In this document: positions 33,020-35,701 of the stretch, one piece after another | How the letters are laid out: each line of letters starts with the position of its first letter | Numbering within the stretch: the stretch's first letter is position 1 | Translations under genes and position numbers: made by a program | Virus record (IMG/VR): IMGVR_UViG_3300031857_000648 | Coordinates: 1 to 35,701 of that record | Direction: 5' to 3' (one strand) | Source: a virus | Length of the DNA: 35,701 bases | The notes under the pieces: model-generated | What the model was told of the DNA's origin: nothing | The model's database searches: none | What the model saw: only the letters and a program-made list of their open reading frames with translations

Positions 33020-33025
33020 ATGTTT

Positions 33026-33041
33026 GGCCTCCTAGGAGGCC
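33026..33041 (+). terminator. Perfect 16-bp GC palindrome, possible terminator or operator
   Basis: GGCCTCCTAGGAGGCC is a perfect palindrome seven bases after the stop of the membrane protein gene, followed by TTCATTATATTTA. The stem is strong but the T-tract is weak, so termination is plausible, not certain. It would also serve as a dimeric protein site. Confidence 0.4.
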
Positions 33042-33061
33042 TTCATTATATTTACAATGTA

Positions 33062-33550
33062 ATGAATAAAGAAATACAAGATACACTTGATTATTTAGGT
33101 TATAAAGTTACAGTTGATGTACCTACAAAACCACCTCACAGAGGTAATAATAAATTTTATTGGTGGAGGAGATACCCAATACATAAAGAACTCCACAAAT
33201 ATCAACCTATAGAAGACAAAATTAAAAATGGTGATTTTAATTATTCACCTTATTGGACTCAAGTACAATATGAGTACTATTGGTTAGCTGAAGCCATTGT
33301 TAAAGCTAAAGGTGAAAAAGAATGGTGTGTAGAAAAAGAACGTGAAATAAGAACTATATATGCTAAGCGTATAAACAAACTATCTGAAGATGCTATGAAA
33401 GATGAGTTTGAACGTTTAGAAGCGTTTAAAAATGATCTTAGACTTCATTATGGTGGTAGTAGAGAAGAAGTTGATACTTTTGTAAATGAGTTTGAGGGTA
33501 GTTTGGATGAATGCGTTACATTTTATAAATTATCTAAAAAGTTAAAATAA
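33062..33550 (+). CDS. Unknown soluble protein, Trp/Tyr-rich
   Basis: 162 residues from ATG 33062 (MNKEIQDTLDYLGY). An in-frame ATG at 33020 would add 14 residues (MFGLLGGLHYIYNV) translated through the GC palindrome, which looks like an untranslated hairpin, so I prefer 33062, but the earlier start cannot be excluded. The body has many aromatic residues (NNKFYWWRRYPIHKELHKYQ, SPYWTQVQYEYYWLAEAIVK) and an acidic-basic helical C-terminal half. No known domain. Its stop overlaps the start of the DpdA-like gene (TAATG), so translational coupling and a related role in DNA modification are possible. Confidence 0.6.
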   Translation: MNKEIQDTLDYLGYKVTVDVPTKPPHRGNNKFYWWRRYPIHKELHKYQPIEDKIKNGDFNYSPYWTQVQYEYYWLAEAIVKAKGEKEWCVEKEREIRTIYAKRINKLSEDAMKDEFERLEAFKNDLRLHYGGSREEVDTFVNEFEGSLDECVTFYKLSKKLK

Positions 33551-34335
33551 TGAAAATATCACATGAAGTTCCCTTAGCGTTACTAGAACGCAGTAAACAT
33601 TTTAATGATTACGATTATTGTTTACCTCACCTGTTAGATAAACATGAAATGTATAAAAATTACTTTCTACAGGCTAGGCTTGATGAACGTTTTATTATTA
33701 TGGATAATGGGTTATTTGAAGGTGTGACTCATACAAATGAGGACTTAATTGAGAAAATTAATTTAATCAAACCTGATATTTTTATAACACCTGATGCTTG
33801 GAACAATACTAGTGCCACTTATAAAAACGCTAAGTATTGGATGAATACTCTTAAAGCACAACTACCATCAGAAACAAAATTAATGGTTGTACTACAGGGT
33901 AAAACAGTTGAAGATTTTATTAATTTATATGATAAGTGTATTGATTTAGGTTTTAAACATTTTGCTTTTAATCATTCATCTGAAGTATATCAACGTTTAT
34001 TTCATCATCCAAATAAACTAGTTAATCAAATGATGGGTAGGATTGAATTGGTTACTTCATTTAAAAAACAAGGTTATATTTTAGACAACCATTATATACA
34101 TTTGTTAGGTGCTAGTTTACCTCAAGAATTTATTTATTATAAGGAATTTAATTACATCAACTCAGTTGATACATCTTCACCTATTATAAATGGTATTTTA
34201 GGAATTACATATGAAGAGTATGGTTTGCTAACTAAACCAACAAATAAGATTGAAGAGTTTTTTGAAGATAGTTTAGATGAACAAATTGGAAATATTACAT
34301 TCAACATAAATAAGTTTAAGGAATATTTATCATAA
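33550..34335 (+). CDS. dpdA: Phage DpdA-like DNA (7-deazaguanine) transglycosylase
   Basis: 261 residues with the outline of the tRNA-guanine transglycosylase/DpdA superfamily. FIIMDNGLFEG (Asp52) is the first acidic position, IFITPDAW and LMVVLQGKT (111-119) lie in the barrel core, HLLGASLPQEF (184-194) is the GG-type base-binding loop, and NSVDTSSP (Asp207) matches the second catalytic Asp, expected to attack the deoxyribose. The CxCxxC zinc site of tRNA TGTs is absent, as I recall for short phage DpdA proteins. DpdA exchanges guanine in DNA for preQ0 or a derivative. The queC gene 1 kb downstream makes preQ0. Naming is by motif pattern, not by search. Confidence 0.72.
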   Translation: MKISHEVPLALLERSKHFNDYDYCLPHLLDKHEMYKNYFLQARLDERFIIMDNGLFEGVTHTNEDLIEKINLIKPDIFITPDAWNNTSATYKNAKYWMNTLKAQLPSETKLMVVLQGKTVEDFINLYDKCIDLGFKHFAFNHSSEVYQRLFHHPNKLVNQMMGRIELVTSFKKQGYILDNHYIHLLGASLPQEFIYYKEFNYINSVDTSSPIINGILGITYEEYGLLTKPTNKIEEFFEDSLDEQIGNITFNINKFKEYLS

Positions 34336-34589
34336 TGAAGAATATAATTATAAAATATTTTAGTGGTCAACCACTAAATATAGATGAGTGTGTTAAACTA
34401 ATGGAGGCTTATATGGTTAAAGTAGGGAAGACTAACTCAACTATAATACAAAAACTAATAGATCCTATGAATCCATTTGGACAAGGAATGTTACAACAAG
34501 CAGTAGAAATATCTGCTCGTACATTGTCTGAGGATTATAATATAACAAGAGTCATTTCAAAAGAAGGTCACTTGTTAATGATATATTAA
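34335..34589 (+). CDS. Small unknown protein following dpdA
   Basis: 84 residues, starting on the TAATG that ends the DpdA-like gene. Mixed helical character; residues 15-60 include CVKLMEAYMVKVGKTN and a MNPFGQGMLQQAVEISART segment; the C-terminus is short and hydrophobic. No known motif. The one-base overlap suggests a linked role or just operon packing. It is the last protein gene before the tRNA cluster. Confidence 0.6.
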   Translation: MKNIIIKYFSGQPLNIDECVKLMEAYMVKVGKTNSTIIQKLIDPMNPFGQGMLQQAVEISARTLSEDYNITRVISKEGHLLMIY

Positions 34590-34594
34590 GTAGG

Positions 34595-34665
34595 CTCCTT
34601 TCGTCTATCGGTTAGGACATCAGGTTTTCATCCTGGAAAGACGAGTTCGATTCTCGTAGGGAGTA
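34595..34665 (+). tRNA. tRNA-Glu (anticodon UUC)
   Basis: A full cloverleaf can be drawn: acceptor GCTCCTT/AGGGAGT (two G-T pairs), D arm GTCT/GGAC, anticodon stem TCAGG/CCTGG with loop TTTTCAT, giving anticodon TTC, and T arm ACGAG-TTCGATT-CTCGT. The discriminator is A. The genome has ACA, not ACCA, after it, so CCA must be added by enzyme. It reads GAA, a very common codon in this AT-rich phage. Confidence 0.95.
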
Positions 34666-34887
34666 CAATGAGTAAGAGATACTCACCAGTCTTTGGATCA
34701 AGTCTTTAACAATGGTCTCGCTCGAGCCGGACAGCGGAATGCCGGTTATAGAGGATGAAAAGGATGTGGACACACTCCTCTCTATTAATGTTGATTTATA
34801 TTTTCATGTGGTAAGACACTAATGTGTTTGTTTTCAAGAAAACTAAACCGTTAAAATCTACTATCCGGAATCTCAGGATGGGGGAAT
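34666..34887 (+). ncRNA. Structured, GC-elevated intergenic stretch between tRNAs, candidate ncRNA
   Basis: About 220 bases without a convincing gene and clearly richer in G+C than the flanking coding DNA. Hairpins that can be drawn: GAGTA/TACTC (34670-34684), AGCCGG/CCGGTT (34725-34747), AGAGGA/TCCTCT (34750-34781), GTTTT/AAAAC with loop CAAG (34830-34843), and CTATCC/GGATGG (34861-34881). No match to RNase P, tmRNA or group I intron signatures is clear. It may be an independent small RNA, or the 5' part of a larger RNA ending in the tRNA-like element that follows. Confidence 0.4.
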
Positions 34888-34968
34888 AGTCAGGTGCTGG
34901 GCAGTTACAGTAATTCCGAGTCTTAGACTTGAGATGAAATTATACAGGTTCGAATCCTGTCCTGACTA
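34888..34968 (+). tRNA. tRNA-like element with aberrant anticodon arm
   Basis: The acceptor stem AGTCAGG/CCTGACT is a perfect 7 bp and the T arm ACAGG-TTCGAAT-CCTGT is perfect. The 3' end has the same A-CA pattern as the flanking tRNAs. The central part is not canonical: it has a short D-arm-like CTG/CAG, then a long hairpin CGAGTC-TTA-GACTTG that can be extended by GTAATT/AATTAT. No ordinary seven-base anticodon loop with T33 results. It could be a tRNA with an unusual arm, a decayed tRNA, or a tRNA-like end of a longer RNA. Isotype not assigned. Confidence 0.5.
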
Positions 34969-34976
34969 CAAATAAT

Positions 34977-35061
34977 GCTCGGGTGGTGGAACTGGTAGAC
35001 ACGCAGGACTTAAAATCCTGTGTCCTTTAAAGACGTGCGGGTTCAAGTCCCGCCCCGAGTA
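34977..35061 (+). tRNA. tRNA-Leu (anticodon UAA)
   Basis: Class II cloverleaf: acceptor GCTCGGG/CCCGAGT (first pair G-T), D region TGGTGGAACTGGTAGACAC, anticodon stem CAGGA/TCCTG with loop CTTAAAA giving TAA, a variable arm GTCCTTTAAAGAC, and T arm GCGGG-TTCAAGT-CCCGC. Discriminator A; CCA not encoded. It reads UUA, the dominant leucine codon in these genes. Confidence 0.96.
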
Positions 35062-35080
35062 CAAAATAAATTTTTAGTAG

Positions 35081-35106
35081 GTTTGGGATACCAAGTCTTC
35101 TTTTTT
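35081..35106 (+). terminator. Probable terminator after the tRNA cluster
   Basis: TTTGG/CCAAG stem around loop GATA (35082-35095), followed by TCTTCTTTTTT. It ends the tRNA/RNA cluster before the next promoter-like motif. Confidence 0.6.
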
Positions 35107-35128
35107 ATATTTATATTATAATAAATAA
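35107..35128 (+). promoter_or_regulatory. Late-promoter-like variant before the last complete gene
   Basis: ATATTTATATTATAATAAATAA combines the ATATTTATA and TATAATAAA halves of the late motif with a 5-base insertion, directly after the terminator and five bases before the start codon region of the gene at 35134. Confidence 0.4.
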
Positions 35129-35133
35129 AAGTT

Positions 35134-35337
35134 ATGTCACAAGAAAATTTTATGTCACTTTATGACTACCTAGGTAAAGCAGCTGGAGGTGAGTTAGGTA
35201 AAAAAGTGTTTGATGCTGCTAAAGAACAAAATCAACCTTATCAACTTAGAGAAGTATCAAATCCAAAATTTAATGGTAAGGTAGTGTTATATACTAAAGA
35301 ATTTTTAGATAAATATTTTAATAAATTACCTTTTTAA
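35134..35337 (+). CDS. Small unknown protein upstream of queC
   Basis: 67 residues (MSQENFMSLYDYLGKAAGGE, then KKVFDAAKEQNQPYQLREVSNPKFNGKVVLYTKEFLDKYF). An N-terminal helical half precedes a C-terminal strand-helix unit. Starts in the AGTTATG context. queC follows by one base between stop and ATG, so the two are probably translated from one mRNA. No domain is recognised; a role in 7-deazaguanine metabolism is possible only by position. Confidence 0.7.
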   Translation: MSQENFMSLYDYLGKAAGGELGKKVFDAAKEQNQPYQLREVSNPKFNGKVVLYTKEFLDKYFNKLPF

Positions 35338-35338
35338 T

Positions 35339-35701
35339 ATGAATAAAAAATATGCAGTTTTGAGTTTAAGTGGAGGAATGGATTCTTCTACTTTATTACT
35401 TCATCTATTACAAGAAGGGTTTGATGTTACATGTTTAAGTTTTGATTATGGTCAAAAACATAAAGTAGAATTAGAACGTGCTACTGAATTAGTAAAATAT
35501 ATTAATAAAAATAATTTAATAGAAACTGATAAGCCAGTATGGGATGAAAGATTTTCTTTAGTTAAACATCAAATCATTAAATTAGATGGTTTATCTCAAT
35601 TACTAAATTCATCATTAGTAGAAGGTGGTTCTGAAGTACCTGAAGGTCACTACGCAGAAGAAAATATGAAGGATACTGTAGTACCTAATCGTAATAAAAT
35701 A
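35339..35701 (+). CDS. queC: 7-cyano-7-deazaguanine (preQ0) synthase QueC, N-terminal part
   Basis: 121 codons from ATG 35339 to the window edge, open at the 3' end; full QueC proteins are around 220 residues. The PP-loop ATPase motif SLSGGMDSST is at 9-18, followed by LSFDYGQKH, the usual QueC FxYGQRH segment. Near the visible end, VPEGHYAEENMKDTVVPNRN is the family hallmark (P.GHY....M..TVVPNRN). QueC converts 7-carboxy-7-deazaguanine to preQ0 using ATP and ammonia. With the DpdA-like gene upstream, its product is likely meant for DNA rather than tRNA. queD, queE and a GTP cyclohydrolase are expected downstream. Confidence 0.93.
   Translation, partial: MNKKYAVLSLSGGMDSSTLLLHLLQEGFDVTCLSFDYGQKHKVELERATELVKYINKNNLIETDKPVWDERFSLVKHQIIKLDGLSQLLNSSLVEGGSEVPEGHYAEENMKDTVVPNRNKI

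Follow-up and report, generated by a model that had tools for sequence, protein, structure and literature searches.

The window analysed here, 35,701 bp in length, is the entire virus record IMGVR_UViG_3300031857_000648 of IMG/VR. Near its downstream end it carries a dpdA-like gene and the beginning of queC, which very probably form part of a module for exchanging guanine in phage DNA for a 7-deazaguanine base; the likeliest identity of that base is 7-cyano-7-deazaguanine (preQ0) or its amide ADG. The basis of this interpretation is the tRNA-guanine transglycosylase (TGT) fold of the dpdA product, its invariant active site, and its linkage to the entire preQ0 pathway in related phages; we infer that DNA rather than tRNA is the substrate, which base is inserted, and that the product protects against restriction. 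Judged by gene content, the locus appears to belong to the known guanine-replacement modules of preQ0 type, as the initial annotation of this DNA had proposed from dpdA and queC; queD, queE, and folE, which lie out of the window's reach, were found in relatives. Because the window is the complete record and the contig end falls inside queC, the remainder of the module is readable only from these relatives. The direct evidence from the window comprises dpdA, a conserved 67-aa open reading frame (ORF67), and the first 121 codons of queC:

33550..34335, plus strand: dpdA-like DNA-guanine transglycosylase (predicted), 261 aa, matching PHROG 19058; assigned from an AlphaFold2 model, Foldseek and VIA comparisons, invariant residues, and homology to phage immuto
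35134..35337, plus strand: ORF67, 67-aa conserved gene directly upstream of queC and its putative partner (alignment A3)
35339..35701, plus strand: queC, 5′ 121 codons, ended by the contig (Pfam QueC, E 3e-23)

These genes, and an 84-aa gene at 34335-34589, lie where the initial annotation had placed them.

The 261-aa protein is predicted from its modeled structure to be a short DpdA-type DNA-guanine transglycosylase, probably acting on DNA. PHROG 19058 carries no assigned function, and as a single sequence the protein gave nothing useful against PDB and Pfam, so that a structure search was required. The AlphaFold2 model, built from an alignment of 42 clade sequences, reached a predicted local distance difference test (pLDDT) score of 95.1, and TGT or DpdA accounted for every one of its best 42 Foldseek matches in PDB, among them 7ui4, the "DNA preQ0 insertase DpdA". 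The VIA comparison gave a Z score of 17.4 over 228 residues (3.1 Å) with archaeosine TGT and of 17.2 with a preQ0-bound TGT. The TGT-like fold on which the initial annotation had staked its prediction is therefore present in the model. A search of viral models (BFVD) additionally returned a phiST protein (TM 0.86) and a protein of the DpdA2 phage nt-1. Foldseek matches to proteins other than TGT (TIM barrels, e.g., PdxJ) were weaker and were taken as general barrel similarity.

Two catalytic aspartates had been pointed out beforehand at residues 52 and 207. Both positions are confirmed, and D52, D82, Q116, G187, and D207 occur without exception in 199-202 aligned homologues; for the two aspartates, invariance in about 200 homologues is far beyond chance. 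The protein carries the motifs MDNGLFE (D52, within IIMDNGLFE), TPDAW, VLQG, HLLG, and SVDTSSP (D207, within NSVDTSSP), the order of which we take to match that of the TGT motifs. In a profile alignment with DpdA1, D52 and D207 coincide with the aspartates of its DSGAF and DSSS motifs, and D207 was also aligned with SIDSTTP of 7ui4. Only two cysteines (C24 and C130) are present, and the protein thus has no TGT zinc site; the zinc-binding subdomain of tRNA-guanine transglycosylase is missing from it.

This short transglycosylase subfamily is already known and is annotated in Flavobacterium phage immuto. A tblastn search with the 261-aa protein matched 18 phage records, four of Flavobacterium phage immuto and 14 of Campylobacter phages. 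The immuto "DNA guanine transglycosylase" is 35% identical over its full length, and the Campylobacter homologues, mostly annotated as hypothetical, are 33-34% identical; overall, identity to the immuto and Campylobacter proteins is 33-36% over about 98% of the length, and profile A2 (DpdA3 type) matches both. The 261-aa protein probably belongs to the subfamily reportedly named DpdA3 by Cui et al. 2023, and that name is used here. In one search, the DpdA3 profile also matched (6.5e-27) an unannotated protein of Brevundimonas phage MaInes (L202:8861-9661) that adjoins queE/queD/queC and is likely a missed dpdA; it was not matched in the search seeded by A2 alone.

In the window, dpdA and queC are 1,003 bp apart, in line with the 1 kb noted initially, and the identity of queC is borne out by its Pfam match and by the SGGxDS, YxQxHxxE, and VPxRN motifs contained in the fragment. 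Fourteen related records were surveyed for que genes. In 13 of them, including the nearest relative (DpdA 96% identical), queC, queD, and folE were all above cut-off; the 14th, whose available locus stops ~1 kb downstream of dpdA, has none of the three. The mapped loci of relatives also contain queE, whose product is a diverged radical-SAM QueE. In the nearest relative, the gene order is dpdA, an 84-aa gene, tRNAs, a 67-aa gene, queC, a GIY-YIG-type gene, and a helix-turn-helix gene, continuing with queD, queE, a nucleotidyltransferase-like gene, an HGPRT-type gene, folE, and a dCTP deaminase/dUTPase-like gene. Across the clade, queD frequently immediately precedes dpdA.

In the 14 related records, QueF gave only below-cut-off matches, which are the FolE gene itself (same fold), and no preQ1 route is therefore claimed. 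No amidotransferase fused to QueC was found in the relatives examined; together with the lack of QueF, this makes preQ0 the predicted base. ADG is a possible alternative because the QueC reaction passes through it (PMC13329287) and Campylobacter phages have been reported to be highly modified with dADG (PMC6884629).

By sequence, the QueC of the relatives is a zinc-less variant. The canonical zinc motif, C(x)8CxxCxxC (PMC13329287), is missing in 175 of the 180 distinct QueC proteins of the collected loci (the window fragment stops before this region), and the other motifs are kept among the same proteins: SGGxDS in 178, YxQxHxxE in 178, VPxRN in 179, and YPDC in 170. The tyrosine equivalent to the essential Y189 of Escherichia coli is kept as well. 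The QueC of immuto also lacks the zinc motif; the cysteines are retained in CAjan, nt-1, CP21, VpKK5, and MaInes. In 185 of 202 loci, ORF67 immediately precedes queC (173) or queE (12), also where gene order varies. Of the loci with zinc-less QueC, 122 contain ORF67; of the five with zinc QueC, none does. Because 53 loci with zinc-less QueC lack ORF67 and the sequences stem largely from one clade, its tie to zinc-less QueC is a correlation only. The ORF67 model (pLDDT 81) had no significant PDB match, and no PHROG matched it consistently.

Beside folE, the relatives encode a guanine phosphoribosyltransferase (PRT) of either HGPRT or XGPRT type, a predicted member of the deazaguanine module. 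The HGPRT type matches TIGR01203 at 3e-34, which is below the equivalog cut-off, and HGPRT-type structures in PDB at 6.5e-25; one gene of this type lies at L012:12197-12709. The XGPRT type matches E. coli XGPRT (1a95) at 7.6e-20 with profile A4 (PRT) and conserves VDDICDSGxTL, the phosphoribosyl pyrophosphate (PRPP) motif, and WIVYPWE, the purine-binding Trp motif, aligned with purine/xanthine PRT structures. In the first locus set, which comprised 91 loci with dpdA, queC, and folE, the HGPRT type was found in 43 and the XGPRT type in 22, never together. Phage-wide searches were made in a collection of 50,697 phage records, of which two XGPRT-type queries matched 39 and 43. Leaving aside a few short or faecal fragments, the matches that were inspected belong to deazaguanine phages from several unrelated groups, namely Flavobacterium immuto, Campylobacter, Cellulophaga phiST, Synechococcus BUCT-ZZ01, and Brevundimonas MaInes phages together with siphophages of Vibrio, Pseudomonas, and Stenotrophomonas; further FolE-annotated matches came from Variovorax, Xanthomonas, and Sphingomonas phages.

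Several siphophages, Queuovirinae among them, have PRT fused to FolE. The FolE domain starts at residue 117-118 of a ~300-aa protein in VpKK5, a Stenotrophomonas phage, and a Pseudomonas phage, and in the first two the PRT motifs are found in the preceding ~115 residues, which also match the PRT profile; this indicates that PRT and FolE are one protein there. Genes annotated as GTP cyclohydrolase in Vibrio VpKK5 (L194:4998-5897) and the Stenotrophomonas phage (L195:5754-6644) are really such fusions. By similarity, the fusion would extend to Pseudomonas NP1/PaMx25-type, Xanthomonas DoCa3, and Sphingomonas MMDA13 phages. When PRTs were clustered at 60% identity, a que gene lay within 9 kb in 60 of 72 clusters, and folE was found in 53, on the same strand in all 53 and within 150 bp in 42. 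Because deazaguanine phages supplied the seeds for the XGPRT retrieval, the enrichment near que genes is biased upward; this bias explains neither the abutment of folE, nor the fusion to FolE, nor the two interchangeable PRT subfamilies.

PRT may be linked to high guanine replacement, although the numbers are small. Complete replacement is reportedly tied to the DpdA3 subfamily. Profile A4, used for presence and absence because PF00156 misses the PRTs of Campylobacter and Stenotrophomonas phages, detected a PRT in both Campylobacter phages tested and none in Dp-1, nt-1, HVTV-1, a Rosebush-type phage, CAjan, or 9g, the last of which replaces about 27% of its guanine. Published replacement is 1.7% in Dp-1, about 0.1% in nt-1, 30% in HVTV-1, 28% in Rosebush, taken to represent its type, and 32% in CAjan (PMC6884629).

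A mechanism can be proposed in which FolE, QueD, QueE, and QueC would convert GTP into the 7-deaza base. The short DpdA would cleave the glycosidic bond of guanine in DNA, with D207 as nucleophile, D52 as acid/base, and a D82/Q116/G187 pocket binding the base, and would attach the 7-deaza base to the same sugar, freeing guanine; the modified DNA would then withstand host restriction. As a further step, deduced from relatives, the PRT next to folE could return the freed guanine to GMP/GTP and so supply FolE, and this removal of guanine could prevent reversal of the exchange. In human TGT, preQ0 is readily displaced by guanine, whereas preQ1 and queuine are not (PMC8136771); if the phage enzyme is alike, free guanine would undo preQ0 insertion. 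HPRT uses position 7 for recognition, and carbon there instead of nitrogen blocks HPRT salvage (PMC8136771), making the use of preQ0 by the PRT unlikely. We regard as an evenly balanced proposition that deazaguanine phages in which much or all of the guanine is replaced operate a closed guanine loop, from DpdA through guanine, PRT, and GMP/GTP to FolE-QueD-QueE-QueC and preQ0, with a zinc-independent QueC in this clade and the 67-aa protein as candidate partner. A literature search returned no published statement of a guanine-recycling role for a phage PRT, one key 2023 paper lying outside its reach; a phage PRT recycling enzyme is apparently undescribed.

Several observations weigh against this picture. 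By itself, the window has no queD, queE, folE, or PRT, owing to the contig end. The profile-profile probability between the 261-aa family and DpdA1 is low (15%), and zinc-less QueC is possibly unable to make preQ0. Finally, no PRT was seen, within the available sequence, in 16 of 51 (~30%) DpdA3 clusters with folE. This last count, like the abundance of nucleotide genes in phage genomes, would favor a PRT that performs ordinary purine salvage and sits beside folE through chance or shared regulation, an explanation that touches the recycling step only and leaves the core module intact. We consider it rather unlikely, since the XGPRT-type queries match almost only deazaguanine phages, two PRT subfamilies occupy the same place without co-occurring in the first locus set, PRT is fused to FolE, and it is absent from the six phages with partial replacement.

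Two other explanations concern the core module itself. The base might instead be made into a deoxynucleotide and incorporated by DNA polymerase, with the PRT working on preQ0 rather than guanine. Such a route was once proposed for Campylobacter phages, as cited in PMC6884629, and PRT, dCTP deaminase/dUTPase-like, and kinase genes do lie in or near the module; however, no member of the clade lacks a transglycosylase whose active site is intact, Campylobacter phages likewise have one, the position-7 carbon blocks HPRT salvage, and PRT abuts or fuses to FolE, the GTP-consuming step, not QueC, all of which makes this route very improbable. Equally improbable is that the genes serve to raise the queuosine content of tRNA, be it that of the host or of the phage, with the TGT-like protein swapping tRNA guanine and queC lifting preQ0: the TGT fold and the tRNA genes between dpdA and queC are compatible with it, but the 261-aa protein has no TGT zinc site, is ~100 aa shorter than TGT, and groups with phage DpdA proteins rather than TGT, QueF is above cut-off in none of the 14 relatives, and a complete pathway from GTP would hardly be needed for tRNA.

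The guanine-replacement module proposed here most closely invites comparison with Flavobacterium phage vB_FspM_immuto, which has annotated DpdA, QueC, QueD, QueE, FolE, and QueF. Besides the DpdA likeness given above, the QueC of the relatives is 65% identical to that of immuto and zinc-less in both, an ORF67 homologue lies ~0.85 kb upstream of immuto queC, and PRT is directly upstream of folE. Immuto differs in having QueF and a formyltransferase-like gene beside dpdA; tblastn gave no formyltransferase-like match in those loci of the relatives that were searched. The Campylobacter phages (CP220/CP21) share the DpdA-like protein and PRT, whereas their genes are scattered over the genome, QueC of CP21 retains the zinc cysteines, and ORF67 had no match there in the phage-wide search. 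DpdA1 of Escherichia phages 9g and CAjan (dG+, dPreQ0) shares TGT-type exchange, the D52/D207 equivalents, and the same preQ0 pathway, but has almost no sequence similarity, and these phages show partial replacement and lack PRT. Bacterial DpdA (7ui4) resembles the 261-aa protein in fold and D207 motif, although it is longer (436 aa) and belongs to a restriction system of the host instead of a phage module.

In its core, the system is of a known kind and uses a transglycosylase subfamily that is also known; the PRT, the zinc-less QueC, and ORF67 are what set this clade apart as a variant. Each DpdA exchange costs one GTP and frees one guanine, and replacing most guanines in a ~170-kb phage genome at 30% GC amounts to roughly 50,000 exchanges per genome copy. 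If true, FolE-tied guanine recycling would offer a simple, testable answer to this cost and to the question of why some phages replace ~30% of guanine and others much more. PRT could serve as a marker from which deazaguanine phages, and perhaps how much of their guanine is replaced, can be predicted, and zinc-less QueC with its small partner provides a natural test of what the QueC zinc site does.

Other features around dpdA are as follows:

33020..33550, plus strand: gene without known function, 176 aa (162 aa from 33062), overlapping the dpdA start; conserved neighbor of dpdA/queD
34335..34589, plus strand: gene without known function, 84 aa, overlapping the dpdA stop
34594..34666, plus strand: tRNA-Glu (UUC), from ARAGORN (Rfam 54 bits)
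34887..34968, plus strand: tRNA-like element with a perfect 7-bp acceptor stem AGTCAGG/CCTGACT, from ARAGORN in pseudogene mode
34977..35062, plus strand: tRNA-Leu (UAA), from ARAGORN (Rfam 58.6 bits)

Overlaps at both ends of dpdA are formed by TAATG junctions. The upstream gene may start at 33020 or 33062, and its homologue in L006 begins at the equivalent of 33062, the start chosen initially. Its homologues lie within 600 bp upstream of dpdA (70), queD (25), or queC (2) in 97 of 110 loci, and the 176-aa protein had no Pfam match above cut-off. The 84-aa gene has five distinct homologues, all within the nearest clade. The small genes had been suggested as tailoring or regulatory candidates. 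The 67-aa gene is a strongly conserved queC partner, the 176-aa gene is often a neighbor, and the 84-aa gene is confined to the closest relatives; no tailoring gene was identified.

Farther upstream, positions 1-24500 of the window carry tail sheath, tail tube, baseplate hub, and tape-measure genes, then gp32-, UvsX-, exonuclease-, DnaB-, and Nrd-type genes; large ORFs without a PHROG match are numerous there.

Both tRNA genes, which the initial annotation had not mentioned, lie inside the ~1-kb gap between dpdA and queC, in which an Rfam scan found no group I intron or other RNA besides the tRNAs. The element at 34887-34968 is probably a degenerate tRNA. ARAGORN called it tRNA-Stop(UUA) in pseudogene mode only, and a role as an ochre suppressor was rejected as a main idea, given this score and the use of TAA as stop codon by dpdA and further genes of the window. 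Two copies in L002 (7351-7492 and 7615-7756), each 142 nt with an oversized middle, share its acceptor stem and T-arm. Between the tRNAs, at 34811-34870, a ~55-nt element, GTGGTAAGACACTAATGTGTTTGTTTTCAAGAAAACTAAACCGTTAAAATCTACT, is letter-identical in L002 and L015 amid diverged intergenic DNA; it contains two small hairpins and has no Rfam match. A large tRNA array separates dpdA from queC in a relative, with 19 genes in L009:7076-10765 and 21 in the overlapping L015, compared with two in the phage of the window.

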